Shown piece after piece: positions 3,360-32,385 of a stretch of DNA of 36,341 nucleotides. Made by a program: the position numbers and the translations under genes. Within the stretch, counting starts at the first letter, position 1, and every line of letters starts with the position of its first letter. A model generated the notes under the pieces. That model was not told where the DNA came from, searched no databases, and worked only from the letters and a program-made list of their open reading frames with translations. This stretch comes from Pseudobutyrivibrio sp. Lineage in GTDB: Bacteria; Bacillota; Clostridia; Lachnospirales; Lachnospiraceae. The stretch spans positions 1 through 36,341 of the forward strand of contig NZ_SVEV01000033.1 in NCBI RefSeq assembly GCF_015057185.1, in the 5' to 3' direction.

Positions 3360-3374
3360 ATGTGGAGGTATGAC

Positions 3375-4745
3375 ATGAACAATCCTATGAAAGAAGCACC
3401 AGTTAATTCACTGATGCTAAAAATGGGAACACCAATTATTATATCTATGATGATGCAGGCCCTTTACAATATTGTGGATTCTGCATTCGTATCAAATATG
3501 GGCGCTAACGGTGAGATGGCACTTAATGCGTTAACCCTGGCATTTCCTGTGCAGGTGTTATTAATTGCACTGGGAATAGGAACCGGAGTAGGAATGAATG
3601 TTGTTGTGGCTAGAAGCCTTGGACAGCGTGATTTTGAGAAAGCATCAAAAGCGGCCGGAACAACAAAAGTTTTGGCATTCATTATTTTTGCAGTGTTTTT
3701 CCTGTTTGGTGCATTTGGCGTAAAGTTCTATATAGGAACTCAAACATCAAATTCTACTATTTCAGAAATGGCTGTAGTTTATCTTAGGATATGCTGTATG
3801 TTATCCTTGGGAAACGCATATTTTACAGTTTATGAAAAATTGTTGCAGGCACATGGACGTTCAAAGTATTCAACAATCGCCCAGCTTGCTGGCGCACTAA
3901 CAAATATTGTGTTAGATCCTATTTTGATATATGGATTGCTTGGACTTCCAAGAATGGAAGTAGTAGGTGCTGCACTTGCTACAGTAATAGGACAGTTTGT
4001 ATCAATGGGACTAGGATGGTATTTCCATCGTAAATACGATAATGAAATTTCAAATGATAGAAAGTATTTAAAGCTGAGCGGTTCTATGATTAAAGAAATC
4101 TATTCAATAGGTGTTCCGGCAATCATTGCGCAGGCTCTCATGTCAATAATGACATATTTATTGAATGTTATCTTTGTTCGTATTGGAGAAAATGTGGTTA
4201 CTGCATATGGTCTCTACTATAAGATTCAGCAGTTCATACTTTTTGCTGCATTTGGAATGAGAGATACAATTACACCTATTGTATCTTTTGCTCATGGAAT
4301 GAAGGATGAAAAAAGAATTAAAGAAGGAATGAAATGGGGAATACTTTATACATCAGTGATTATGCTGTTTGGAACATTGCTTTTAGAAGTATTTGCAAAC
4401 CCATTTGCAAATATGTTTGGACTATCAGGAGAGACTGAAACGATATGTGTTGCAGCTATGCGTATTGTTTCAATTAGTTTTTTATTTTCAGGTTTTAATA
4501 TTTCTTTTCAGGGAATATATCAGGCACTTAATGCTGGTCCTCAGTCACTTGTGATTTCAATTTTAAGGCAATTTGTGCTAGTTATTCCCGTTGCTTTTGT
4601 ATTTTCAAATATGGTCATTTCAGGGAGCGCATCGAAGTCAATAATATGGATAACATTTATAATCGCTGAGGTTTTAACTGCAGTGGTCGGATATATTATG
4701 CTTATGAGAATCGTTAAGGCTAGTTTAAGTGTTAAAGTAATTTAA
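3375..4745 (+). CDS. MATE-family multidrug exporter
   Basis: 456 residues from ATG 3375, chosen because GGAGG lies 6 nt upstream; the ATG at 3360 is inside the T tract of the leader hairpin. The protein has about 12 hydrophobic segments in two homologous halves. The N-terminus NPMKEAPVNSLMLKMGTPIIISMMMQALYNIVDS is typical of clostridial MepA/NorM-like exporters, which extrude cationic drugs or metabolites using Na+ or H+. The conserved pattern recurs in the second half (IKEIYSIGVPAIIAQALM). It is preceded by a terminator-like leader, suggesting control of transcript elongation, and followed by a structured 128-nt repeat and a convergent HxlR repressor gene. Its substrate is unknown. Confidence 0.9.
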   Translation: MNNPMKEAPVNSLMLKMGTPIIISMMMQALYNIVDSAFVSNMGANGEMALNALTLAFPVQVLLIALGIGTGVGMNVVVARSLGQRDFEKASKAAGTTKVLAFIIFAVFFLFGAFGVKFYIGTQTSNSTISEMAVVYLRICCMLSLGNAYFTVYEKLLQAHGRSKYSTIAQLAGALTNIVLDPILIYGLLGLPRMEVVGAALATVIGQFVSMGLGWYFHRKYDNEISNDRKYLKLSGSMIKEIYSIGVPAIIAQALMSIMTYLLNVIFVRIGENVVTAYGLYYKIQQFILFAAFGMRDTITPIVSFAHGMKDEKRIKEGMKWGILYTSVIMLFGTLLLEVFANPFANMFGLSGETETICVAAMRIVSISFLFSGFNISFQGIYQALNAGPQSLVISILRQFVLVIPVAFVFSNMVISGSASKSIIWITFIIAEVLTAVVGYIMLMRIVKASLSVKVI

Positions 4746-4875: not shown

Positions 4876-4986
4876 GATTTGAGACCAGCTTTTCCAGACC
4901 TTCTATATACAATTATTTTCAGACAAAAGAAGAAATCTTTTTAAGTCTACTGACCCGTTAATATATTCAAGATAGTAGTGTAAGAA

Positions 4987-5310
4987 TTAATTATTTTTTT
5001 TATAATCAGTGCCCCATTTTTCCATGGATTTAATTATAGGGCGCATGGATTCGCCGAGTTCTGAAAGGGCATATTCAACTCTAGGTGGAACTTCTGGATA
5101 AACAGTTCTTGTTATAATACCGTCTTCTTCCATGGAACGGAGAGAATCAGTGAGAACCTTTTGGCTGATTCCATCTAAGCTGTTTTTTAATTCGTTGAAT
5201 CTCCATGGACGAACTAGGAGATTTCTAATTATAAGTAATTTCCATTTACTGCCGATTAGGCTAACAGTTGTAGCTACTGGGCATTCTGGTAATTCGTCTT
5301 TTGTTTTCAT
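4987..5310 (-). CDS. HxlR-family transcriptional regulator
   Basis: 107 residues with the HxlR winged-helix pattern: ECPVATTVSLIGSKWKLLIIRNLL near the N-terminus, RFNELKNSLDGISQKVLTDSLRSMEEDGII (recognition helix and following segment) and a wing with EVPPRVEYALSELG. Cys10, in ECPV, is the redox- or aldehyde-reactive position in several relatives. HxlR proteins usually repress a neighbouring gene. Candidates here are the divergent ACGX peptide operon (starts 5540) and the convergent MATE gene. A dyad at 5415-5432 lies between this gene and the peptide gene. Confidence 0.88.
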   Translation of the reverse strand: MKTKDELPECPVATTVSLIGSKWKLLIIRNLLVRPWRFNELKNSLDGISQKVLTDSLRSMEEDGIITRTVYPEVPPRVEYALSELGESMRPIIKSMEKWGTDYKKNN

Positions 5311-5414
5311 AAGAGCTCCTTTCTCTTTCTATATAATCCAATAGTATCAAATGTAATGTAACATCATTTTTTAATATAAGTTCAATATAACACCATCATA
5401 AAATAAAGTCGATA

Positions 5415-5432
5415 AGTTACAAAAAGGTAACT
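5415..5432. promoter_or_regulatory. Possible HxlR operator dyad
   Basis: AGTTAC-AAAAAG-GTAACT is a perfect 6-bp inverted repeat with a 6-bp spacer in the divergent region between the HxlR gene and the ACGX peptide gene. A second imperfect dyad (AAAAAGGTGCGTACTTTTT, about 5440-5458) follows. HxlR dimers bind short dyads of this type, so the assignment is by position and symmetry only. Confidence 0.5.
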
Positions 5433-5539
5433 ATGTAATAAAAAGGTGCGTACTTTTTTATTTGTTGACGGGGGATTATATTGAAATCACAGAAAGCAAT
5501 AACGCTTCTGATGATTTTTTATAACAGGAGGATTTACAA

Positions 5540-5668
5540 ATGGCATTATCAAATCTTAATGGATGGGTTAACGGAAATTCACAGTCAACAGCTGCTGGCA
5601 CAGGTTGCGGTGCTGGTGATGAGAAACCTTCAGCATGTGGATCAGCATGTGGCGCAGGTGACAAATAA
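5540..5668 (+). CDS. ACGX-repeat RiPP precursor peptide
   Basis: 42 residues. ATG 5540 has AGGAGG at 5526-5531, 8 nt upstream. The leader MALSNLNGWVNGNSQ is followed by a Gly/Ala/Cys-rich core with GTGCGAGDE and two ACGX repeats (ACGS, ACGA) before GDK. Its three cysteines are all followed by Gly. This matches the ACGX-repeat peptides, substrates of a dedicated radical SAM/SPASM enzyme; such a gene follows. The final product and its activity are not known to me. A terminator between the peptide and enzyme genes would make the peptide transcript much more abundant, as is usual for RiPP precursors. An overlapping frame from 5481 is longer but has no composition or context in its favour. Confidence 0.85.
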   Translation: MALSNLNGWVNGNSQSTAAGTGCGAGDEKPSACGSACGAGDK

Positions 5669-5692
5669 TTAGAGACATAAATATTTAACCTA

Positions 5693-5723
5693 GGCCACCG
5701 GATAATCTGGTGGCCGTTTTTTT
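5693..5723 (+). terminator. Terminator between RiPP precursor and maturase
   Basis: GGCCACC (5693-5699) pairs with GGTGGCC (5709-5715), with extra inner pairs possible, and runs into GTTTTTTT. It probably terminates most transcripts after the precursor gene and lets a fraction continue into the maturase, setting substrate:enzyme stoichiometry. No clear separate promoter is visible between it and the maturase. Confidence 0.85.
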
Positions 5724-5779
5724 GAAAAGAACAAGCAAATAGCTTTTTATCATAGATGAGTAATAAATGGAGGTAAGTG

Positions 5780-6835
5780 ATGATGAAGCCATATTTTTCA
5801 TTTCAGTGGCATATTACAGATGAATGCGATCAGAGATGTAAGCATTGTTATATATATTCCAGTGGGGAACATACATGTCTTGAATCCATGAGTTGGAAGC
5901 AAATGGAAGATACTTTCTATAATTGTTTAGATTTTTGCAAGGTTTATGAACGAACTCCTTACTTTTATATCACAGGCGGTGATCCAATATTACACCCGGA
6001 TTTTTGGAAATTATTGGATTTGATGCATGAACATGAAATAAAGTTTACGATTTTGGGAAATCCATTTCATCTGAATGACCAGATATGCAGGGAGCTTAAA
6101 TGGTACGGATGTGAAAAATATCAGCTTTCGCTTGACGGACTCCGTGAAACTCATGATTGGTTTAGAAAGCCAGGTTCTTATGATTGCACATTAGAAAAAA
6201 TTGGGTGCCTTAATCGAGCAGGGATTAGAAGTGTGATTATGACTACTGTATCTAAAACCAATCGAATGGAAGTACCTGGAATAATAGATGAGGTGGTAAA
6301 AGCTGGAGCAAATGTATTTGCATTTGCGAGATATGTACCGAGTGGCGGTGATTTAGATGCGTCCATGACAGCCAAAGAATATAGAGCGCTTCTTGAAATG
6401 TGTGACAAAAAGTTTAAGGAATATCAGTCTGAGGGGTGCCAAACATACTTTAATAGAAAAGACCATCTTTGGACCCTATATAAGTATGAAACTGGAGAAT
6501 TCAAGATCCCAGAAAATGTAGAGCCAGGCACGATTTATGAAGGATGCAACTGTGCTAATTGCCATATGACGATTTTACCAACTGGTGATATCTATGCATG
6601 CAGACGTGTTGCAGATAGTAAAGTTGGTAACGTTTTTACGGATAGAATCGCAGACCTTTGGGAAACATCATTTGAGGAATACCGTGATTACGAAAAATTT
6701 GAAAAATGCAGTAGATGTAAACTGAAGCCTTGGTGTAGAGGTTGTCCTGCAGTAGCAAATGGCACAAATGGTAGTTTCTATAGCGATGATCCTCAGTGCT
6801 GGGCAGATGAAAATAGTGAATTGTTTGATTCTTAA
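5780..6835 (+). CDS. Radical SAM/SPASM maturase of the ACGX peptide system
   Basis: 351 residues from ATG 5780 (GGAGG at 5769-5773). The radical SAM cluster motif is CDQRCKHC near residue 16 (Cx3Cx2C), in the context FQWHITDECD, followed by ITGGDP for SAM binding. The C-terminal SPASM domain supplies many cysteines: CNCANC, ILPTGDIYACR, and CSRCKLKPWCRGCP, then a late QCW. These should hold auxiliary [4Fe-4S] clusters. SPASM enzymes of this kind install thioether or C-C links on peptide substrates. The direct partner is the ACGX peptide 110 nt upstream. Only 14 nt separate it from the MDR oxidoreductase, so it is cotranscribed with the sirtuin/macrodomain genes. Confidence 0.9.
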   Translation: MMKPYFSFQWHITDECDQRCKHCYIYSSGEHTCLESMSWKQMEDTFYNCLDFCKVYERTPYFYITGGDPILHPDFWKLLDLMHEHEIKFTILGNPFHLNDQICRELKWYGCEKYQLSLDGLRETHDWFRKPGSYDCTLEKIGCLNRAGIRSVIMTTVSKTNRMEVPGIIDEVVKAGANVFAFARYVPSGGDLDASMTAKEYRALLEMCDKKFKEYQSEGCQTYFNRKDHLWTLYKYETGEFKIPENVEPGTIYEGCNCANCHMTILPTGDIYACRRVADSKVGNVFTDRIADLWETSFEEYRDYEKFEKCSRCKLKPWCRGCPAVANGTNGSFYSDDPQCWADENSELFDS

Positions 6836-6849
6836 TAAAGAGAGGTTTT

Positions 6850-7815
6850 ATGGAACATATGATGAATGCAGTGGTACTGACGAAGAAAACTAGTGTTAAA
6901 GATGTGTGTGTGTCACAGGTTGAAATACCAAAGGTTGTTTCAGGATGGGTTCTTATTAAGGTGAAAGTCTTTGGAATGAATCATTCTGAACAAATGCTAC
7001 GAGAATTCGAGATAGAAAGTGATTATATAAATAAGCCAGTTATTCCAGGCATAGAATGTGTGGGGGTAGTTGAAGACCCATCAGATACAGACTTGCAAAA
7101 GGGTCAAAAGGTAATTGCTATGATGGGTGGAATGGGAAGGAGTTTCGATGGAAGTTATGCAGAATATGCTCTTCTTCCAAGACATCATGTATTTACAGTA
7201 GATAGTGATTTGAGTTGGGAAAAGCTGGCTGCTATTCCTGAAACATATTTTACAGCATGGGGCTCTTTGTTTGAGTGTCTTCGATTAAAAAAAGATGATA
7301 TATTACTTATTAGAGGAGCAAGCTGTGCATTAGGTTATGCTGCTTTGCAGATAGCGAAGGCAGTGGGCTGCAAAGTAGTAGTAACAACTCACAGAGAAAA
7401 ATATTTTTCTTCATTAAAAGACGCTGATGAAATACTCATGGACAAAGGAATACTTACGGGAAATGTGAAGGGAATTACAAAAGCGCTAGATCTAATTGGT
7501 CCTAGAAATATTTTAGATACGCTTACAGCGGTGGAAAAAGGAGCAACAGTATGCCAGACAGGAATATTAGGTGGAGTGTATGTCTTAGATGGATTTGATC
7601 CAATTAAGGACATTCCAAACGGAGTGTATCTTACAGGGTTCTATTCCAACTTTCCTACACAAGAAATTGTGGATGATATGTTTGCATTTATCAGTGAGAA
7701 CAAATTGGAACCAATTTACGGTCCAGTATATAGATTTAGGGATATTAAAGAGGCTATGTGTATGCAGGAATCTGGAAAAGCAGGCGGTAAGATAGTTGTT
7801 GTGGTGGAGGAATAA
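6850..7815 (+). CDS. Zinc-less MDR-family NADPH oxidoreductase (quinone-reductase-like)
   Basis: 321 residues of the medium-chain dehydrogenase/reductase fold. The N-terminal GroES-like domain contains VKVFGMNHSEQM and PGIECVGVV, and the Rossmann domain has the nucleotide-binding loop RGASCALGYAALQIAKAVG (about 155-173). The zinc ligands of classical alcohol dehydrogenases are missing, as in quinone oxidoreductases. The start at 6850 (AAGAGAGG ending at 6845) is close to its ribosome site, so Met4/Met5 remain possible. It sits between the radical SAM enzyme and the sirtuin with gaps of 14 and 2 nt. Described SirTM-macrodomain operons can also carry a redox enzyme, which may be the role here. 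The substrate is unknown. Confidence 0.85.
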   Translation: MEHMMNAVVLTKKTSVKDVCVSQVEIPKVVSGWVLIKVKVFGMNHSEQMLREFEIESDYINKPVIPGIECVGVVEDPSDTDLQKGQKVIAMMGGMGRSFDGSYAEYALLPRHHVFTVDSDLSWEKLAAIPETYFTAWGSLFECLRLKKDDILLIRGASCALGYAALQIAKAVGCKVVVTTHREKYFSSLKDADEILMDKGILTGNVKGITKALDLIGPRNILDTLTAVEKGATVCQTGILGGVYVLDGFDPIKDIPNGVYLTGFYSNFPTQEIVDDMFAFISENKLEPIYGPVYRFRDIKEAMCMQESGKAGGKIVVVVEE

Positions 7816-7817
7816 TA

Positions 7818-8795
7818 ATGGAGCATAGAAAAAATGGCTATAGAGATTCGATAGAAAGAGGCATGGCAGCTGTGAGATATTTTAGCAGTGGTGTATCTTA
7901 TGGAAAAGGCAATTTCGAAGAGAATGTAAGTAAGCTTCAATGGGAGCTTGATAAGGCAGATGCAGTAATAATCGGTGCTGGTGCTGGCATGTCCACCGCA
8001 GCTGGTTTCATATACACAGGTGCTAGATTTGATAGATATTTTTCAGATTTTTCTAAGAAATATGGGTTTATCGATATGTATTCTGGTGGATTTTATCCAT
8101 ATCCTAAAAAGGAAATTTTTTGGGCATATTGGGCACGATATATCTATATGAATAGATATATGAATCCACCTAAGAATACCTACAATAAGCTATATAAATT
8201 AGTTAAAGACAAAGATTATTTTGTGATTACAACTAACGTGGATCACTGTTTCCAGAAGGCTGACTTTGACAAAAAGAGATTGTTTTATACACAGGGGGAT
8301 TATGGTTTGTTTCAAAGCATTAACCCAGATATCAGACAGACTTTTGATAATGAAGAGTGGGTAATGAAGGCTATGGAAGCTCAGGGATTCGTAAGAAATG
8401 AAGACGGTATTTTTGAAGTTCCTGTAGACAAGAATATTAAAATGGAAATTCCAACAGAACTTATACCAAAATGTCCTGTGGATTGCAGCCCGGTTACTAC
8501 AAATCTTAGAGCAGATGATAATTTTGTTGAGGATGATGGATGGCACAGGGCATCGGCAGCATACTCAGACTTTCTTAGAAGACATGAATCATTGCATGTA
8601 TTATACTTAGAATTAGGTGTAGGGAGTAACACTCCTGTAATAATCAAATATCCGTTTTGGCAAATGACCTCAGCAAATCCTAAAGCAGTTTATGCTTGTC
8701 TAAATTATGGTGAAAGCTATTGCCCAAAGGATATTGAGGATCAGAGCATTTGCATAGATGGTGATATAGATGAGATTCTGAATAAGCTTAGTTAA
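7818..8795 (+). CDS. Class M (SirTM-like) sirtuin, predicted protein ADP-ribosyltransferase
   Basis: 325 residues. The NAD-binding Sir2 motifs are present: GAGAGMS (53-59), TTNVD (138-142) and GVGSN (267-271). At the position of the catalytic His of deacetylating sirtuins (normally before Gly in HG) the sequence is TQGD, that is Gln159. This Gln is the mark of SirTM enzymes, which ADP-ribosylate protein targets instead of deacetylating them. The zinc-ribbon region keeps only CPVDC (219, 223) close together, followed by TTNLR. It is followed by the macrodomain gene that would remove the modification. The usual partners of SirTM, a GcvH-like carrier and lipoate ligase LplA2, are absent. The start is supported by GGAGG at about 7806-7810. 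Confidence 0.85.
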   Translation: MEHRKNGYRDSIERGMAAVRYFSSGVSYGKGNFEENVSKLQWELDKADAVIIGAGAGMSTAAGFIYTGARFDRYFSDFSKKYGFIDMYSGGFYPYPKKEIFWAYWARYIYMNRYMNPPKNTYNKLYKLVKDKDYFVITTNVDHCFQKADFDKKRLFYTQGDYGLFQSINPDIRQTFDNEEWVMKAMEAQGFVRNEDGIFEVPVDKNIKMEIPTELIPKCPVDCSPVTTNLRADDNFVEDDGWHRASAAYSDFLRRHESLHVLYLELGVGSNTPVIIKYPFWQMTSANPKAVYACLNYGESYCPKDIEDQSICIDGDIDEILNKLS

Positions 8796-8811
8796 TTGGG
8801 AGGGGTTTCTT

Positions 8812-9594
8812 ATGAATCATTCAGAACAAAGAATTTGGTTGATTCAACAATTGATGGCGGAGGATGATTATTATCGCAATTACGATATTCCTCAGGATGA
8901 AAGAGGACAAAAGGATTTTCTAAGAGCCCTTATGAATGTGAGAGAGCCAAAAGATATTAGCATTGAGTTTTTGGAAATCCAGGATGAATATTTGCAGGTT
9001 GAAAACGAAGGGACTGGAGTTGTTTCCATACATGAATTAAAGCCAGTATCATCAAATCCAAAGCTATATGTCTGGCAGGGAGATATTACCCGTCTTAAAG
9101 TAGATGCTATCGTAAATGCGGCCAATTCTCAGATGTGTGGATGTTTTCAGCCTCTTCACAACTGCATAGACAATATTATTCACTCGAAATCCGGAATACA
9201 GCTTCGTTTGAAGTGCGCAGATATAATGAGGCGCCAAGGACATGAAGAGCCTACGGGACAGGCTAAGATTACCCCAGCTTACAATTTGCCATGTGACTAT
9301 GTTATTCATACTGTAGGTCCTATAGTTCAAGTAGCTTTGACCGAAAGGCATGAAGAACTCTTGGCATCTTGCTATAAATCATGTCTTAATCTAGCAGCAG
9401 AAAATAAAGTGAAGTCCATCGCATTTTGCTGCGTATCAACCGGAGTATTCATGTTCCCAAATCAAAGAGCCGCTGAGATTGCTGTAGAAACAGTCAAAAC
9501 CTGGCTTGATGAGACAGGAAGTGAGATGAAGATTGTGTTTAATGTATATAAAGATATCGACCTTGATATCTATGACAAGCTTCTCAAAAAATAA
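8812..9594 (+). CDS. Zinc-containing macrodomain ADP-ribosyl hydrolase (SirTM partner)
   Basis: 260 residues. An N-terminal helical segment of about 85 residues precedes the macrodomain, as in the staphylococcal and streptococcal SirTM-linked proteins. The core has VWQGDITRLKVDAIVNAANS (86-106), then GCFQPLHNCIDN with the expected zinc ligands Cys111, His116 and Cys118, and the phosphate loop CCVSTGVFMFP (206-216). The zinc-type macrodomains reverse the mono-ADP-ribosylation made by SirTM. The gene is 16 nt after the sirtuin stop with a GGGAGGGG ribosome site, so it is the last gene of the RiPP/sirtuin operon. A separate decayed macrodomain gene is at 35970. Confidence 0.9.
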   Translation: MNHSEQRIWLIQQLMAEDDYYRNYDIPQDERGQKDFLRALMNVREPKDISIEFLEIQDEYLQVENEGTGVVSIHELKPVSSNPKLYVWQGDITRLKVDAIVNAANSQMCGCFQPLHNCIDNIIHSKSGIQLRLKCADIMRRQGHEEPTGQAKITPAYNLPCDYVIHTVGPIVQVALTERHEELLASCYKSCLNLAAENKVKSIAFCCVSTGVFMFPNQRAAEIAVETVKTWLDETGSEMKIVFNVYKDIDLDIYDKLLKK

Positions 9595-9619
9595 ATATTA
9601 TTATCAAGAAAAAATAATG

Positions 9620-9649
9620 TTGAATTTTTAAAAATATATAGAGTAGAAT
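9620..9649 (+). promoter_or_regulatory. Predicted promoter for second MATE gene
   Basis: TTGAAT (9620-9625), 18 bp, TAGAAT (9644-9649), about 31 bp before the MATE start. The surroundings are A/T rich, which raises the chance of a false match, but no other promoter lies between the macrodomain stop and this gene. Confidence 0.45.
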
Positions 9650-9680
9650 AGGTCCAAACATAAGCTAGGAGAATAAATTA

Positions 9681-11009
9681 ATGGAGAAAAATCTTACACA
9701 GGGAAGCTTACTAAAAAATATTATGATTTTCTCGGGACCATTTCTGCTTTCTTATTTTTTGCAGACATTGTATGGAATGGCTGATTTGTTTATAGTTGGT
9801 CAATATAATGGTGCAGCATCTATATCAGGAGTATCTATAGGTTCTCAAGTGATGCACATGATTACTGTCATGATTGTAGGTCTTGCTATGGGAGCTGTGG
9901 TTATGATTGCCAGGGGTGTTGGCGCTAGAGACCGAGCTAAAATATCAAAGACAATCGGAAATACAATAGTGTTATTTGTTATAGTTGCCCTGATTGTGAT
10001 GGTCATTTTATTAGGATTGGTGAATCCAATAGTTTTGGTTATGAGCACACCAAAGGAAGCTATTGAGGAGACTACAGCATATCTTTTAGTTTGCTTTGCA
10101 GGTATTCCTTTTATTGTTGCTTATAACGTAATTGCAGCAATTTTTAGGGGGCTTGGAGATTCCAAAAGTCCTATGATTTTCATAGCTATTGCATGTGCTG
10201 TAAACATTGCATTGGACTATCTTCTTATTGGCGGATTGGGAATGAAGGCGGTAGGCGCAGCATGGGCAACAATTATTGCACAGGCTTTCAGCGTTTTGAT
10301 TTCTATTATTGCTATTTACAAAATGAAATTGGTGACAATAGCTAAAACGGATTTACGAATTGATAAATCAGTTTTATGCAGCATTTTAAGAGTAGGAGTT
10401 CCAGTCAGTCTACAGGATGGCTTTATTCAGGTTTCATTCCTAATAATCACTATTATTGCAAATACAAGAGGAGTTGAAATATCTGCAGCGGTAGGTATTG
10501 TAGAAAAAATCATTTCGTTCCTGTTTTTGGTGCCATCATCGATGTTGTCGACTATTTCAACGATTTCGTCTCAGGCAATTGGAGCTGGAGATAAGCCTTT
10601 GGCGAGAAGGGCACTGTTCTACGGTATGACTATAGCCGTATCAATAGGTTTAGTGTTTGCGATTGCATTCCAGTTTATTGCAGAGCCAGTAATAGGAATG
10701 TTTACAGATGATATGGTGGTAGTTGCACTTGGTGTGTCATATATTAAATCATACGTATTTGACTGCACAGTTGCGTCCTTCCACTTCTGTTTTAGTGGAT
10801 TCTTTGTGGCATCAAACTATTCTTATATTTCATTTATTCATAATGTGGCGTCAATTATTTTGATGAGAGTTCCTGGCGCATACTTTGCATCGATATATTA
10901 CCCAGATACTCTTTTCCCAATGGGTCTTGCAGCACCACTCGGTGGAGTGATACAGCTAATCATCTGTGTGATGGCATATATGATCTTGCGAAGAAGAGAG
11001 AAAATATAA
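9681..11009 (+). CDS. MATE-family efflux transporter
   Basis: 442 residues with about 12 hydrophobic segments. The N-terminus (LTQGSLLKNIMIFSGPFLLSYFLQTLYGMADL) and the internal repeat around SILRVGVPVSLQDGFIQVSF are characteristic of DinF/NorM-type MATE exporters. It belongs to a different subgroup from the exporter at 3375, with little direct similarity beyond the family pattern. A ribosome site (TAGGAG, about 9667-9672) precedes ATG 9681. It lies 86 nt after the macrodomain gene with its own possible promoter. It could export the modified ACGX peptide or protect against other compounds; this is inference from position only. It ends before a 9-bp hairpin without a T tract. Confidence 0.9.
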   Translation: MEKNLTQGSLLKNIMIFSGPFLLSYFLQTLYGMADLFIVGQYNGAASISGVSIGSQVMHMITVMIVGLAMGAVVMIARGVGARDRAKISKTIGNTIVLFVIVALIVMVILLGLVNPIVLVMSTPKEAIEETTAYLLVCFAGIPFIVAYNVIAAIFRGLGDSKSPMIFIAIACAVNIALDYLLIGGLGMKAVGAAWATIIAQAFSVLISIIAIYKMKLVTIAKTDLRIDKSVLCSILRVGVPVSLQDGFIQVSFLIITIIANTRGVEISAAVGIVEKIISFLFLVPSSMLSTISTISSQAIGAGDKPLARRALFYGMTIAVSIGLVFAIAFQFIAEPVIGMFTDDMVVVALGVSYIKSYVFDCTVASFHFCFSGFFVASNYSYISFIHNVASIILMRVPGAYFASIYYPDTLFPMGLAAPLGGVIQLIICVMAYMILRRREKI

Positions 11010-11670: not shown

Positions 11671-12612
11671 ATGCAAAACGCGGAGTTTGAAAAGAGTCGT
11701 AGGTTTTATGAGAATCAAGTGGCTCCTATGATACATGAGAAGTTTCCTAAATATGAATCAAAAATAGCAGTAGGCTTAGTGGGAGAGGGTTCAGATTGTT
11801 TTGGTTATGATGATTACATGTCTCGTGATCATGATTTTGGCACTGGTGTATGCTTATGGCTTACTGACGAAGACTTTGATGAAATAGGATGTCTTTTATC
11901 CATAGCATACAATGAGCTCGCTATGCAGTATGGTGGTGAAAACCTTACTGAACGACTTCAAGAGCGAAGAGGAGTTATGACTACAAGGTCATTTTACTCA
12001 AACATTCTTTATATTGATTGCAATACTAAGGACTGTATGCTTACGGAAAATGATTGGCTTAATCTAGAGCATAGCTGTCTTGCTACAGCAACAAATGGAG
12101 AGGTTTTTAGAGATGACTTAGGAGAGTTTACGAGATTTAGGAATCTTCTTTTAAGCTACTATCCAGATAGTATATGGAGAAGAAGAATAGTAAATGAGCT
12201 CCATCAATTTTCGGCATCCCTTCAAGTAAACTATGCTAGATGTATGACTAGAAATGATATAGTGGCAGCGGAGCTTTGTAGAGTAAAAGGTCTTGAGTCT
12301 GCTATGGAGCTTTACTTTTTGCTTAATAGAAAGTTTGCGCCATATTATAAATGGACTTACAGAGCCTTATCTGAACTAGATAATGACGGTGAGTATGCAA
12401 TGCTTGTTAAAAAGCTTGCCTCTACTGTAAGCGATGATGCGGCTTGGAGATTTAATACGTATAATCCTAGAAGCATCAATATGAAAGATAAAGTAATTGC
12501 TACTGCTGAAGAAATAGCAAAAGCTTTAGTGGAGCTTCTTAAGAAAAACGAGTTGATAGGTGGTAGTGATTCCTACTTGGAAATATACATCGATGAAATA
12601 TTAAAGATATAA
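11671..12612 (+). CDS. DUF4037 nucleotidyltransferase-like protein, copy 1
   Basis: 313 residues. The N-terminus has GLVGEGSDCFGYDDYMSRDHDFG: the GS motif followed by DHD is the nucleotidyltransferase-like signature of DUF4037 proteins. The rest is helical, with a WRRRIVNELHQFSASLQVNYARC segment in the middle. The family has no proven substrate; a role in transferring a nucleotide to a small molecule or RNA is inferred from the fold. It has a GGGGATAGATA leader. The gene and its downstream flank are duplicated at 27470-28574; the two proteins differ mainly in the first 50 residues (Q/R2, A/T4, Q/H16, K/R31) and are otherwise almost identical. Confidence 0.85.
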   Translation: MQNAEFEKSRRFYENQVAPMIHEKFPKYESKIAVGLVGEGSDCFGYDDYMSRDHDFGTGVCLWLTDEDFDEIGCLLSIAYNELAMQYGGENLTERLQERRGVMTTRSFYSNILYIDCNTKDCMLTENDWLNLEHSCLATATNGEVFRDDLGEFTRFRNLLLSYYPDSIWRRRIVNELHQFSASLQVNYARCMTRNDIVAAELCRVKGLESAMELYFLLNRKFAPYYKWTYRALSELDNDGEYAMLVKKLASTVSDDAAWRFNTYNPRSINMKDKVIATAEEIAKALVELLKKNELIGGSDSYLEIYIDEILKI

Positions 12613-27422: not shown

Positions 27423-27470
27423 ATGATTACTCAGATGAAATGGACTAGGGAGCCTAAAGAGGAAAGATAA
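27423..27470 (+). CDS. Short open frame coupled to DUF4037 copy 2
   Basis: ATG 27423 with AGGGGG 4-9 nt upstream encodes MITQMKWTREPKEER (15 residues); its TAA shares an A with the next ATG (TAATG). It may be a translated leader or the head of a deleted gene. The upstream flank of DUF4037 copy 1 has no equivalent. Confidence 0.35.
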   Translation: MITQMKWTREPKEER

Positions 27471-28411
27471 TGCGAAATACAGAATTTGAAAAAAGTCGCA
27501 GGTTTTATGAGAATCATGTGGCTCCTATGATACATGAAAAGTTTCCTAAATATGAATCAAGAATAGCAGTAGGCCTAGTGGGAGAAGGATCAGATTGTTT
27601 TGGCTATGATGATTACATGTCTCGTGACCATGATTTTGGTACTGGCGTATGCTTATGGCTTACTGACGAAGACTTTGATGAAATAGGATGTCTTTTATCC
27701 ATAGCATATAATGAGCTTGCCATGCAATATGGTGGAGAAAACCTTACAGAGCGACTTCAAGAGCGAAGAGGAGTCATGACTACAAGGTCATTTTACTCGA
27801 ACATTCTTTATATTGATTGCAATACTAAGGACTGTATGCTTACGGAAAATGATTGGCTTAATATAGAGCATAGCTGTCTTGCTACTGCAACAAACGGAGA
27901 GGTTTTTAGAGATGACTTGGGAGAGTTTACGAGATTTAGGAATCTTCTTTTAAGCTACTATCCAGATAGTATTTGGAGAAGAAGAATAGTAAATGAGCTC
28001 CATCAATTTTCGGCATCCCTTCAAGTAAACTATGCTAGATGTATGACTAGAAATGATATAGTGGCAGCGGAGCTTTGTAGAGTAAAAGGTCTTGAGTCTG
28101 CTATGGAGCTTTACTTTTTGCTTAATAGAAAGTTTGCGCCATATTATAAATGGACTTACAGAGCCTTATCTGAACTAGATAATGACGGTGAGTATGCAAT
28201 GCTTGTTAAAAAGCTTGCCTCTACTGTAAGCGATGATGCGGCTTGGAGATTTAATACGTATAATCCTAGAAGCATCAATATGAAAGATAAAGTAATTGCT
28301 ACTGCTGAAGAAATAGCAAAAGCTTTAGTGGAGCTTCTTAAGAAAAACGAGTTGATAGGTGGTAGTGATTCCTACTTAGAAATATACATCGATGAAATAT
28401 TAAAGATATAA
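27470..28411 (+). CDS. DUF4037 nucleotidyltransferase-like protein, copy 2
   Basis: 313 residues, the paralogue of 11671-12612. The GS…DHDFG nucleotidyltransferase-like motif is intact (GEGSDCFGYDDYMSRDHDFG). Substitutions compared with copy 1 are few (R2, T4, H16, R31 and I130 for L). The second half is almost identical at the DNA level, down to one base, so conversion or recent duplication must have acted. The start is coupled by TAATG to a short upstream frame. The downstream DUF3592-like gene is reduced to a fragment. Confidence 0.85.
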   Translation: MRNTEFEKSRRFYENHVAPMIHEKFPKYESRIAVGLVGEGSDCFGYDDYMSRDHDFGTGVCLWLTDEDFDEIGCLLSIAYNELAMQYGGENLTERLQERRGVMTTRSFYSNILYIDCNTKDCMLTENDWLNIEHSCLATATNGEVFRDDLGEFTRFRNLLLSYYPDSIWRRRIVNELHQFSASLQVNYARCMTRNDIVAAELCRVKGLESAMELYFLLNRKFAPYYKWTYRALSELDNDGEYAMLVKKLASTVSDDAAWRFNTYNPRSINMKDKVIATAEEIAKALVELLKKNELIGGSDSYLEIYIDEILKI

Positions 28412-29994: not shown

Positions 29995-30648
29995 TTATTT
30001 GATGACAAAGGTATTTCTATCGAAGTCGATAATTCCTTCGTCACGCATTTTACCAAGCTCTCTTGTCATGGCGCTGCGGTTGATGGATAAGTAATCAGCT
30101 AGTTGCGTTCTTGACAGGGGAGCTTTTATATATTTAGATTTTTGCTGTTGTGCAAGGGTAGAAATATATGCCATAAGCTTTCCGCGAATAGATTCTTTCG
30201 ACATGATTTCTAGCTTATTCATATAGGAAATACTTTTTTCACCTAACAAATGAAACATGTTTTCTGCAATTCTAGCATGGAAGCTACAGGCATTTTCACA
30301 GGTATGGATAATTTTTGAAGCAGCAAGAAATAATACTCTTGTTTTTTCCGCAGCAACAAAAGTAACGGAAGATTCCTGCTCTACACTGACAGCAAAATTT
30401 TCTCCAAACAGTTCCCCTGGACCAACATAGGATAGGAGAGATGAATTACCCCAAACGTCTTCTTTCAAAAGGTGTACATTTCCAAAAAGAACAATTCCTA
30501 TATAAGGGACTTTGTCTTTTTCCATAATGATGGTTTCCCCTTTATCAAAATCTTTTTTAAAGGAGTTGATGCAAATCAGTAGTTTATTCAAATTGTCCGG
30601 ATGAATTCCCTCAAATAGAGGAATATCATTGTAATCTATTTCTTTCAT
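29995..30648 (-). CDS. Crp/Fnr-family regulator, probable controller of hcp
   Basis: 217 residues. An N-terminal cyclic-nucleotide-binding-type beta barrel (DYNDIPLFEGIHPDNLNKLL, then PGELFGENFAVS) is joined by a long helix to a C-terminal HTH (LSRTQLADYLSINRSAMTRELGKMRDEGII, about 178-207). It has no N-terminal Cys cluster for an Fe-S centre like that of FNR. It is divergent from hcp with 105 bp between the starts and a perfect 18-bp palindrome in the gap. Crp/Fnr regulators beside hcp (HcpR-type) respond to nitric oxide or nitrosative stress. The sensing group here is not evident. Confidence 0.88.
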   Translation of the reverse strand: MKEIDYNDIPLFEGIHPDNLNKLLICINSFKKDFDKGETIIMEKDKVPYIGIVLFGNVHLLKEDVWGNSSLLSYVGPGELFGENFAVSVEQESSVTFVAAEKTRVLFLAASKIIHTCENACSFHARIAENMFHLLGEKSISYMNKLEIMSKESIRGKLMAYISTLAQQQKSKYIKAPLSRTQLADYLSINRSAMTRELGKMRDEGIIDFDRNTFVIK

Positions 30649-30668
30649 AAGCTCATTATAAAATCAAA

Positions 30669-30686
30669 TTGTTGCAATTGCAACAA
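30669..30686. promoter_or_regulatory. Palindromic Crp/Fnr operator between the regulator and hcp
   Basis: TTGTTGCAATTGCAACAA is an uninterrupted 18-bp palindrome, 20 bp from the regulator start and 68 bp from the hcp start. It has the TTG…CAA ends seen in many Crp/Fnr operators. Confidence 0.8.
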
Positions 30687-30753
30687 ACTGATCTCTGTTC
30701 TAGCTGTATATTATGAGCATCAAAGAAATCCGGTTAGAAAATGGAGGTAAACA

Positions 30754-32385
30754 ATGGAAAATAAGATGTTTTGTTATCAGTGTCAGGAGACAGCAGGTTG
30801 CACTGGTTGTACAATGGCAGGTGTTTGTGGAAAGAAGCCTGAGGTTGCCAATCTTCAGGATTTATTGGTATACGTTACCAAAGGAATTTCATTTGTGACA
30901 ACAAAGCTCAGAGCTGAGGGCAAGGAAGTATCGGAAGATATTAATCATATGATTTCGGTAAATCTTTTTTCTACTATTACAAATGCAAATTTTGATTATG
31001 ATTCAATAGCGCATAAGATTGAAGAAACTATTAATGCAAAGGAACTATTAATAGAAAAGCTTGCAGACAAGAGCAATCTTCCGAATGCGGCTATCTGGAA
31101 TGGTGCTAAGGCACAGTATGACGAAAAAGCTAAGACAGTAGGTGTGCTTTCGACAAAAGATGAAGACATTCGATCATTGAGAGAGTTGATAACATATGGC
31201 CTTAAGGGGCTTGCTGCTTATTCGAAGCACGCAAATGCTCTTTTAAAGGATAATGAGGATGTGGATGCATTCCTTCAAAAAGCGCTAGCAGCTACTTTAG
31301 ATGATAGTCTTTCAGTAGATGATCTGGTTGCGTTAACTCTTGAGACAGGAAAGTATGGAGTGGATGGTATGGCACTTCTTGATGAAGCCAACACATCGGC
31401 TTATGGTAATCCTGAAATTACAAAAGTAGATATAGGTGTTAGAAATAACCCAGGTATTCTTATTTCAGGACATGATCTGAAGGACTTGGAAATGCTCTTA
31501 GAGCAGACTAAAGGAACTGGTGTAGATGTATACACTCATTCTGAAATGTTACCAGCCCATTATTATCCATTCTTTAAGAAATACGATAACTTTGCAGGAA
31601 ATTATGGTAATGCATGGTGGAAGCAGAAGGAAGAATTTGCTAGCTTCAATGGACCAATTCTTATGACAACAAATTGTATTGTGCCACCAGCAGATTCTTA
31701 CAAAGACAGGATGTTTACAACAGGTGCGGCAGGATATCCTGGATGCAAGCATATTGATGCACCTTATGGTAAGACAAAGGATTTTTCTGAAATCATTGAA
31801 TTAGCTAAGAAATGTCAGGCTCCTACAGAAATTGAAACAGGTACAATTACAGGCGGATTTGCTCATGAGCAGGTATTTGCGCTTGCTGATTCGGTGGTAG
31901 AGGCAGTTAAAACTGGAGCAATCAAAAAGTTTGTTGTTATGGCTGGTTGCGACGGAAGAGCAAAATCTCGCGAGTATTACACAGAATTTGCTAAGGCACT
32001 TCCAAAAGATACAGTGATTCTTACAGCAGGATGTGCAAAGTATAAATACAATAAGCTAAATCTTGGAGATATTAATGGAATACCAAGAGTTTTGGATGCA
32101 GGTCAGTGTAATGATTCATATTCGCTTGCCCTTATAGCTCTTAAACTCAAGGAAGTATTTGGACTTGATGATGTAAATGAACTCCCAATTGTCTATAACA
32201 TTGCATGGTATGAGCAGAAGGCCGTAATTGTATTGCTTGCTTTATTATATCTTGGAGTAAAAAATATACACTTAGGTCCAACACTTCCAGCCTTTCTTTC
32301 ACCAAATGTTGCAAACGTTCTTGTGCAGAATTTTGGCATAGCAGGAATTACTAATGTAGAAGATGATATTAAATCTCTAATATAG
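30754..32385 (+). CDS. hcp: Hydroxylamine reductase / hybrid-cluster protein
   Basis: 543 residues, the expected size. The N-terminal cluster Cys are C7 and C10 (CYQC), C19 and C25 (CTMAGVC), in the Cx2Cx8Cx5C spacing of the shorter class of Hcp. Hybrid-cluster ligands can be placed at [42 protein letters not shown] and WYEQKAV. The enzyme reduces NO to N2O and/or hydroxylamine to ammonia, protecting anaerobes from nitrosative stress. GGAGG precedes ATG 30754. It is probably controlled by the divergent Crp/Fnr regulator. A fossil of a second hcp tail lies at 1294. Confidence 0.96.

Follow-up and report, generated by a model that had tools for sequence, protein, structure and literature searches.

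What could a protein ADP-ribosylation module be doing in the operon of a small modified peptide? The question is raised by positions 5540-9594 of a 36,341-nt stretch of Pseudobutyrivibrio sp. DNA (contig NZ_SVEV01000033.1; the whole stretch is called the window below), where genes for an ACGX precursor peptide, a radical SAM/SPASM maturase, an MDR oxidoreductase, a class M sirtuin (SirTM) and a Zn-dependent macrodomain (Zn-Macro) follow one another. The initial annotation had described five genes in one direction, with gaps of 14, 2 and 16 nt 3' of the maturase gene; the gene coordinates bear out both the direction and the gaps, and the family models support the gene identities. An HxlR gene and an operator-like box upstream, which it had not listed, belong to the same unit. 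We propose a redox- or electrophile-stress operon in which the SirTM/Zn-macrodomain switch would act on the mature ACGX redox peptide, and give this reading a probability of about 45%. The features are as follows.

4987-5310, minus strand: HxlR-family regulator, divergent, with one N-terminal cysteine (PECPVATT); PF01638, 110 bits
5416-5455, plus strand: operator-like element GTTACAAAAAGGTAACT ... GTGCGTACTT; conserved box, likely an HxlR site
5540-5668, plus strand: ACGX precursor peptide, 42 amino acids; TIGR04341, 40.5 bits (cut-off 28)
5693-5723, plus strand: terminator-like hairpin with T-run in the peptide/maturase gap, a possible attenuator; z -4.5
5777-6835, plus strand: radical SAM/SPASM maturase, rSAM_ACGX; TIGR04340, 578 bits (cut-off 400)
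6850-7815, plus strand: MDR (PIG3/quinone-oxidoreductase-like) oxidoreductase; PF08240, 47.6 bits, and PF13602
7818-8795, plus strand: SirTM, class M sirtuin, predicted protein ADP-ribosyltransferase; phmmer E 1.3e-54 to PDB 5a3a
8812-9594, plus strand: Zn-dependent macrodomain, predicted ADP-ribosyl hydrolase; NF003163, 370.8 bits (cut-off 272)

Recurrence of the SirTM-ACGX linkage

The adjoining precursor and maturase of the window, each above the curated cut-off of its model (TIGR04341 and TIGR04340), place it in the ACGX system, here linked with HxlR, an oxidoreductase and SirTM/Zn-Macro. Related ACGX loci carry SirTM genes too, a point on which the initial annotation had made the link depend. 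A sample of 397 genomes from the same family as the window, one per species, was searched, and the maturase was found at E 1e-60 or better in 55 of them (51 above the cut-off), from which 57 loci were used. A SirTM homologue is present in at least 198 of the 397 genomes, counts from the family SirTM listing being lower bounds. SirTM lies within 8 kb at at least 29 of the 57 maturase loci, and all 29 are downstream and on the same strand. A larger set of 132 loci was assembled from the family loci with flanks and 80 named loci (of more candidates), minus five duplicates with identical maturase DNA; near-identical loci were retained. The ACGX peptide was found at 119 of these 132 loci. Where at least 5.5 kb of downstream sequence was available, a same-strand downstream SirTM was found at 54 of 89 loci. 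Overall, SirTM is linked at 72 of the 132 loci, and 51 of these 72 also have a macrodomain; either gene of the pair may come first. A Zn-macrodomain above the cut-off is encoded somewhere in 30 of 33 linked genomes.

The linkage extends beyond the family. When the search was widened to the class, 17 of 391 genomes proved to encode an ACGX peptide: that of the window and 16 from other families. SirTM was present at 12 of the 16 out-of-family loci, and of the four without it two sit on short contigs. Seven of the 16 are the same DNA as loci counted before. At the genome level, SirTM was found in at least 50 of 55 maturase-positive genomes vs at least 148 of 342 others, and elsewhere in the genome in at least 17 of the 22 maturase-positive genomes without linkage; species are non-independent, so the significance of this co-occurrence is indicative only. 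Since HxlR is a possible common cause, HxlR genes away from ACGX were used as a control, with 90 HxlR genes among the matches listed for 60 genomes. Among the matches listed, SirTM lies within 8 kb of three of six HxlR genes adjoining a maturase and eight of 84 others. One of the eight, in genome G042, belongs to an ACGX locus whose HxlR lies farther off; counted accordingly, the control is 7/83 HxlR genes away from ACGX vs 33/57 ACGX loci. Chance adjacency of the ACGX and SirTM genes is rejected by the locus counts, the out-of-family loci and the HxlR and genome-level controls.

Commensal isolates that have the cluster include Ruminococcus bromii YE282 (L141) and Butyrivibrio sp. INlla14 (L138). 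Three ACGX loci are filed outside Bacillota, in metagenome-assembled genomes of Succinivibrio (L124), Chloroflexi (L180) and Flexilinea (L132). Binning errors are the likely cause of this filing, and transfer may be another.

Searches of the open-licence literature yielded no paper on the ACGX peptide among the matches listed, and no description of its union with HxlR, oxidoreductases and SirTM/Zn-Macro. The parts all belong to known families, and the search suggests that the joined system is new relative to that literature.

The ACGX peptide, its partners and its regulator

The chemistry of the peptide was approached through its repeats. Across 117 distinct ACGX peptides, glycine follows cysteine at 721 of 727 cysteines, and the position four residues after cysteine holds Asp or Glu at 418, Cys at 271 and another residue at 38; 254 of the 271 follow the pattern C-X3-C-X3-[D/E]. 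Shuffling the cores gave 96 CX3[D/E] units on average and never more than 124, against the 418 observed, whose events are non-independent, the ACGX repeats being related to one another. The fusion protein described below was left out of these statistics. The window peptide has two CX3D units (C23-D27 and C37-D41) and one CX3C unit (C33-C37), which places two of its three cysteines in CX3[D/E]. PapB cross-links CX3[D/E] (PMC9413430), and the window shares with the PapA/PapB ranthipeptides and freyrasin, as described there, a SPASM maturase adjoining a short peptide of CX3[D/E] repeats, the sequence pattern of a ranthipeptide. Unlike PapA/PapB in that account, the ACGX system has a highly repetitive Ala/Gly/Lys/Pro core and oxidoreductase partners, and its maturase lies outside the PapB family (NF047865; 77.4 bits in the window, cut-off 340). 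Because of this low score, the Cys-to-Asp/Glu thioether chemistry is a prediction.

At 119 of 123 loci an oxidoreductase gene is found no more than 1.2 kb beyond the maturase. Its identity varies: PNPOx-like protein with ferredoxin (75 loci), nitroreductase (69), MDR (40) and ferredoxin-nitroreductase (13), with several per locus possible; these names were obtained with Pfam on representatives. The window's MDR protein scores 130.8 bits on the PIG3-like model TIGR02824, below that family's cut-off of 296.8. In one genome (G071, locus L082, oriented positions 3852-4601) the ACGX repeat forms the C-terminal tail of a 249-amino-acid protein whose N-terminal part matches flavin reductase PF01613 (47 bits; ACGX model, 33.7 bits). 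The fusion gene sits between HxlR and the maturase, directly upstream of the latter, and with none of the four oxidoreductase types 3' of the maturase it replaces the peptide and oxidoreductase genes. This fusion places the peptide on a flavoprotein; it is the one clear ACGX fusion across 355 loci and 397 genomes scanned.

In a gene clustering of 61 loci, over stretches up to 16 kb and with family models run on six representative proteins, no transporter group recurs beside the maturase; a MATE-match group occurs at six of the 61 loci and an ABC-ATPase-like group (named by reading) at 14, scattered. Neither proteases nor exporters were seen as repeated neighbours of the ACGX cluster, and the ACGX peptide as an exported product was rejected for lack of a recurring transporter group. 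Two MATE transporter genes flank the cluster in the window (3360-4745 and 9681-11009); given six loci with the MATE group, they look non-conserved. The repeat motif, the flavin reductase fusion and the lack of a recurring protease or exporter together suggest that the peptide would remain cytoplasmic.

A divergent HxlR gene lies upstream at 101 of 114 ACGX loci. Single-cysteine HxlR proteins are generally known to sense thiol stress. Among the 84 HxlR proteins recovered 83 have an N-terminal C[PA][VI] and 73 a single cysteine. The box GT[GT][CT]GTACTT is present in 90 of 101 leader regions of ACGX genes, where shuffled sequence would give 0.05, and its median position is 88 nt upstream of the start codon. 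Where HxlR accompanies SirTM and ACGX is missing, the box was seen at three of 21 HxlR genes. HxlR probably binds this box upstream of the ACGX gene. The initial annotation had also asked whether a promoter and terminator might divide the maturase from the MDR gene; none stands above chance. No plus-strand terminator-like site was found between the maturase and the macrodomain, and promoter-like matches in 4900-9800 are at chance level (18 found, 20.1 expected). A conserved attenuator in the peptide/maturase gap was considered and rejected, a similar hairpin being present in 11 of 111 such gaps vs two of 130 stretches after the maturase.

The SirTM/Zn-macrodomain pair and the lipoyl operons

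The window SirTM has no match in a Pfam scan and was assigned through structural relatives. PDB 5a3a is far ahead (E 1.3e-54), followed by 8rsn (4.3e-17). Entry 5a3a, deposited as 'SIR2 family protein', is presumably SpySirTM, with which its residue numbering agrees at an offset of 10. In the alignment, N140, Q159 (in QGDYG), R231 and GVGSNTP of the window correspond to N118, Q137, R192 and GVGx[NT]TP of SpySirTM, where mutation shows that N118, Q137 and R192 matter (PMC4518038). The class M catalytic residues are invariant in an 11-sequence alignment, and the window protein has the class M features, with QG replacing HG, the Asn, Gln and Arg residues and GVGx[NT]TP; it is a predicted protein ADP-ribosyltransferase. 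The macrodomain, read in the open reading frame, has Cx4HxC (CFQPLHNC), NAAN and Dx3H; its NF003163 match begins at residue 4 and so includes the N-terminal extension. Zn-macrodomains are defined by these features, namely the Cx4HxC loop, NAAN, the Asp/His dyad and the extension (PMC11490716). Its PDB relatives are 8rsi and 5kiv, and from sequence it is a predicted ADP-ribosyl hydrolase.

Pairs of this kind have been described in extended SirTM operons of Staphylococcaceae and Lactobacillales, which encode GcvH-L, LplA2, SirTM and Zn-Macro, often with OYE and LLM (PMC4518038, PMC11490716). There, GcvH-L is ADP-ribosylated by SirTM, probably at Asp27, only once it has been lipoylated, the macrodomain reverses the modification, and lipoylated GcvH-L interacts with OYE (PMC4518038). 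The window resembles these operons, as described, in its SirTM with aligned catalytic residues, its Cx4HxC Zn-macrodomain, a small carrier-like protein with a modifying enzyme, and oxidoreductases. A tie to redox stress, drawn from expression data for the extended operon, is proposed here as well. Unlike the operons in those accounts, the window row lacks GcvH-L and LplA2, has the ACGX peptide and radical SAM maturase instead, contains other oxidoreductase families and HxlR, and occurs in Lachnospiraceae and other Clostridia. It therefore falls outside the GcvH-L/LplA2 type. It is also like the minimal SirTM/Zn-Macro pair operons (PMC11490716) in adjoining SirTM and macrodomain genes without lipoyl genes, and unlike them, as described, in that the pair is joined to a peptide-maturase unit, a candidate substrate. 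Macrodomains of pairs outside lipoyl operons failed to demodify GcvH-L, and the physiological substrates of such enzymes, a statement made for an Mfs1 fusion, remain to be identified (PMC11490716).

The absence of the GcvH-like carrier and LplA2, which the initial annotation had remarked on, extends to the whole genome. A search of the genome of the window, 99.83% complete, gave no GcvH match and no LplA-B_cat match, and its two BPL/LplA/LipB-family genes score as biotin ligases, above the TIGR00121 cut-off.

Weighing the target of the switch

The proposed mechanism starts with HxlR, which through its one N-terminal cysteine would control the operon at the box upstream of the peptide gene. The maturase would install ranthipeptide-style Cys-X3-Asp/Glu thioether links in the short repeat peptide, and the mature peptide may then act as a redox carrier or cofactor for its partner oxidoreductase, which is MDR in the window and nitroreductase or PNPOx-ferredoxin at other loci. 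ADP-ribose would be added to this mature form by SirTM, probably on a repeat cysteine or acidic residue, and stripped off again by the Zn-macrodomain, giving an on/off switch; Cys-ADP-ribose is cleavable by Zn-macros (PMC11490716). The row would thus represent a second type of extended SirTM operon, with the ACGX peptide for lipoyl-GcvH-L, the radical SAM enzyme for LplA2 and the oxidoreductase for OYE/LLM. The mature peptide is proposed as the substrate because the same plan is seen with its carrier-side parts exchanged, in a genome where GcvH/LplA-type genes were not found, and by this analogy the peptide is the likely target of ADP-ribosylation. In a fuller version, the RiPP (ribosomally synthesized and post-translationally modified peptide), rendered redox-active or fixed in conformation by the radical SAM enzyme, would serve flavin/NAD(P)H oxidoreductases as a carrier within the cell, and reversible ADP-ribosylation that reads its maturation state would turn it off and on; this version is more tentative and somewhat doubtful. 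The earlier idea of oxidative-stress control fits the conserved single-cysteine HxlR and the oxidoreductases.

If true, the proposal would make a RiPP the object of reversible NAD-dependent modification and put a lipoate-free carrier in the place of GcvH-L. It would add to the RiPPs with redox roles one that is common in gut Clostridia and that to our knowledge would be the first RiPP known as a substrate of the SirTM/Zn-macrodomain cycle. The union of ACGX and SirTM/Zn-Macro offers a short component list with which the role of the peptide and the substrate of the SirTM pair may be addressed together.

To follow SirTM without ACGX, 116 listed family SirTM loci away from a listed maturase were taken, of which 100 were fetched and four more later. 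The 101 SirTM loci without a listed maturase that were analysed include L117-L120 and not the four later ones; L232, L254 and L304 (no SirTM open reading frame called) and the partial contig-end locus G010:C28 were left out. Within 3.5 kb of the 101 SirTM genes lie a macrodomain at 74, HxlR at 22, Rrf2 at 21 and PNPOx-ferredoxin at 19. These neighbours point to a general redox tie of the sirtuin module, with ACGX as one frequent context. A second recurrent context, seen at L117, L119 and others, consists of Rrf2, a PNPOx-ferredoxin protein, macrodomain and SirTM, without ACGX. A DUF1848 protein (PF08902) stands in the gene row near SirTM at several ACGX loci, such as L070, L091, L100 and L102.

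The history of the pairing was examined with two quick trees. The SirTM tree comprised 70 linked and 100 unlinked sequences, matches under 500 bp being left out (70 of 72 linked kept), and L243, with an ACGX remnant, was excluded from the label counts. It has 27 label changes against a shuffled mean of 54, at least seven forced by well-supported branches. The maturase tree kept 128 of 132 rows (four under 250 amino acids left out) and forces at least 11 label changes. By these forced changes the SirTM-ACGX pairing was made or lost repeatedly, and a single origin is rejected by the changes that the SirTM tree forces. The nearest row to the window SirTM by path, L099, is ACGX-linked, as is the SirTM of G313, a 74% match over residues 35-325. 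Maturase and SirTM covary across 68 loci (Spearman 0.41, with none of 200 permutations as high), which species history alone could explain.

Several observations weigh against the peptide as the substrate. Many SirTM loci in the family are without ACGX, as in the 101 analysed (one with an ACGX remnant), and on the maturase tree the SirTM label clusters weakly (25 changes against a shuffled mean of 28.9). Full-length matches to the window SirTM reach at most 72% among those listed, and the best of them are without ACGX; the locus with the nearest maturase (L121, 90% identity) has ACGX, maturase and MDR with SirTM absent within 10 kb downstream. Two loci without a maturase retain SirTM; at these, L349 and L243, the maturase was apparently lost by a deletion from the ACGX gene into the downstream oxidoreductase gene. 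Thirty-five of the 89 loci with enough flank have no downstream same-strand SirTM; at two of these, L078 and L089, the opposite strand carries a SirTM close by. Of the 72 linked clusters, 21 have no macrodomain within 5.5 kb, some of them at contig ends. The flavin reductase fusion is a single case, and the listed SirTM of that genome is on another contig. Partial weak matches to the GcvH model occur in 16 of the 33 linked genomes (32 besides the window's); they fall within model positions 15-81 of 122 at about 20-25 bits, exceed the cut-off of 22.2 in six genomes and are taken for putative biotin-carrier domains. No clear motif difference was seen between 64 SirTM-linked and 30 unlinked ACGX peptides, and a peptide signature peculiar to linked loci was rejected on this ground.

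Another explanation is nearly as likely as the peptide-as-substrate reading: the ACGX-oxidoreductase and SirTM/macrodomain units may be co-regulated by one redox signal, with another protein, and never the peptide, as the SirTM substrate. The scattered SirTM label on the maturase tree and the two loci that retain SirTM without a maturase speak for it, and SirTM loci without ACGX carry redox-type regulators and flavin enzymes too. However, a shared stimulus accounts poorly for the rarity of SirTM near HxlR genes away from ACGX (7/83 vs 33/57 ACGX loci, among the matches listed), for the excess of SirTM in genomes with unlinked ACGX loci (at least 17/22 vs at least 148/342) or for the scarcity of the ACGX box at HxlR genes that adjoin SirTM where ACGX is missing (three of 21). 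In the known operon, moreover, GcvH-L was the sole modified protein among the purified operon proteins tested (PMC4518038).

That the maturase or the oxidoreductase, rather than the peptide, is the target of the SirTM/macrodomain pair appears improbable. The short gaps in the window and the oxidoreductase found after the maturase at nearly all loci (119/123) favour such a target, yet unrelated oxidoreductase families alternate after the maturase from locus to locus, which leaves no single fold as a general target; the maturase itself stays a candidate. Among the targets proposed in the initial annotation (peptide, maturase and MDR enzyme), the MDR enzyme is the least likely, because its gene is near the maturase at 40 of 123 loci. 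Radical SAM-RiPP pairs often yield exported products, and together with the two MATE genes flanking the cluster this would suit a secreted RiPP, a bacteriocin or signal, with the SirTM module as self-protection or an unrelated neighbour. We consider this very improbable, in view of the lack of a recurring transporter group at the 61 loci, the conserved oxidoreductases and HxlR, and the one genome in which an ACGX tail is covalently joined to a flavin reductase.

Elsewhere in the window, two near-identical DUF4037-type genes lie about 15 kb apart (11671-12612 and 27470-28411; Pfam was run on the first). At 29995-32385, a Crp-type regulator is divergent from a hybrid-cluster protein (Hcp)-like gene, both named from reading of the open reading frames.

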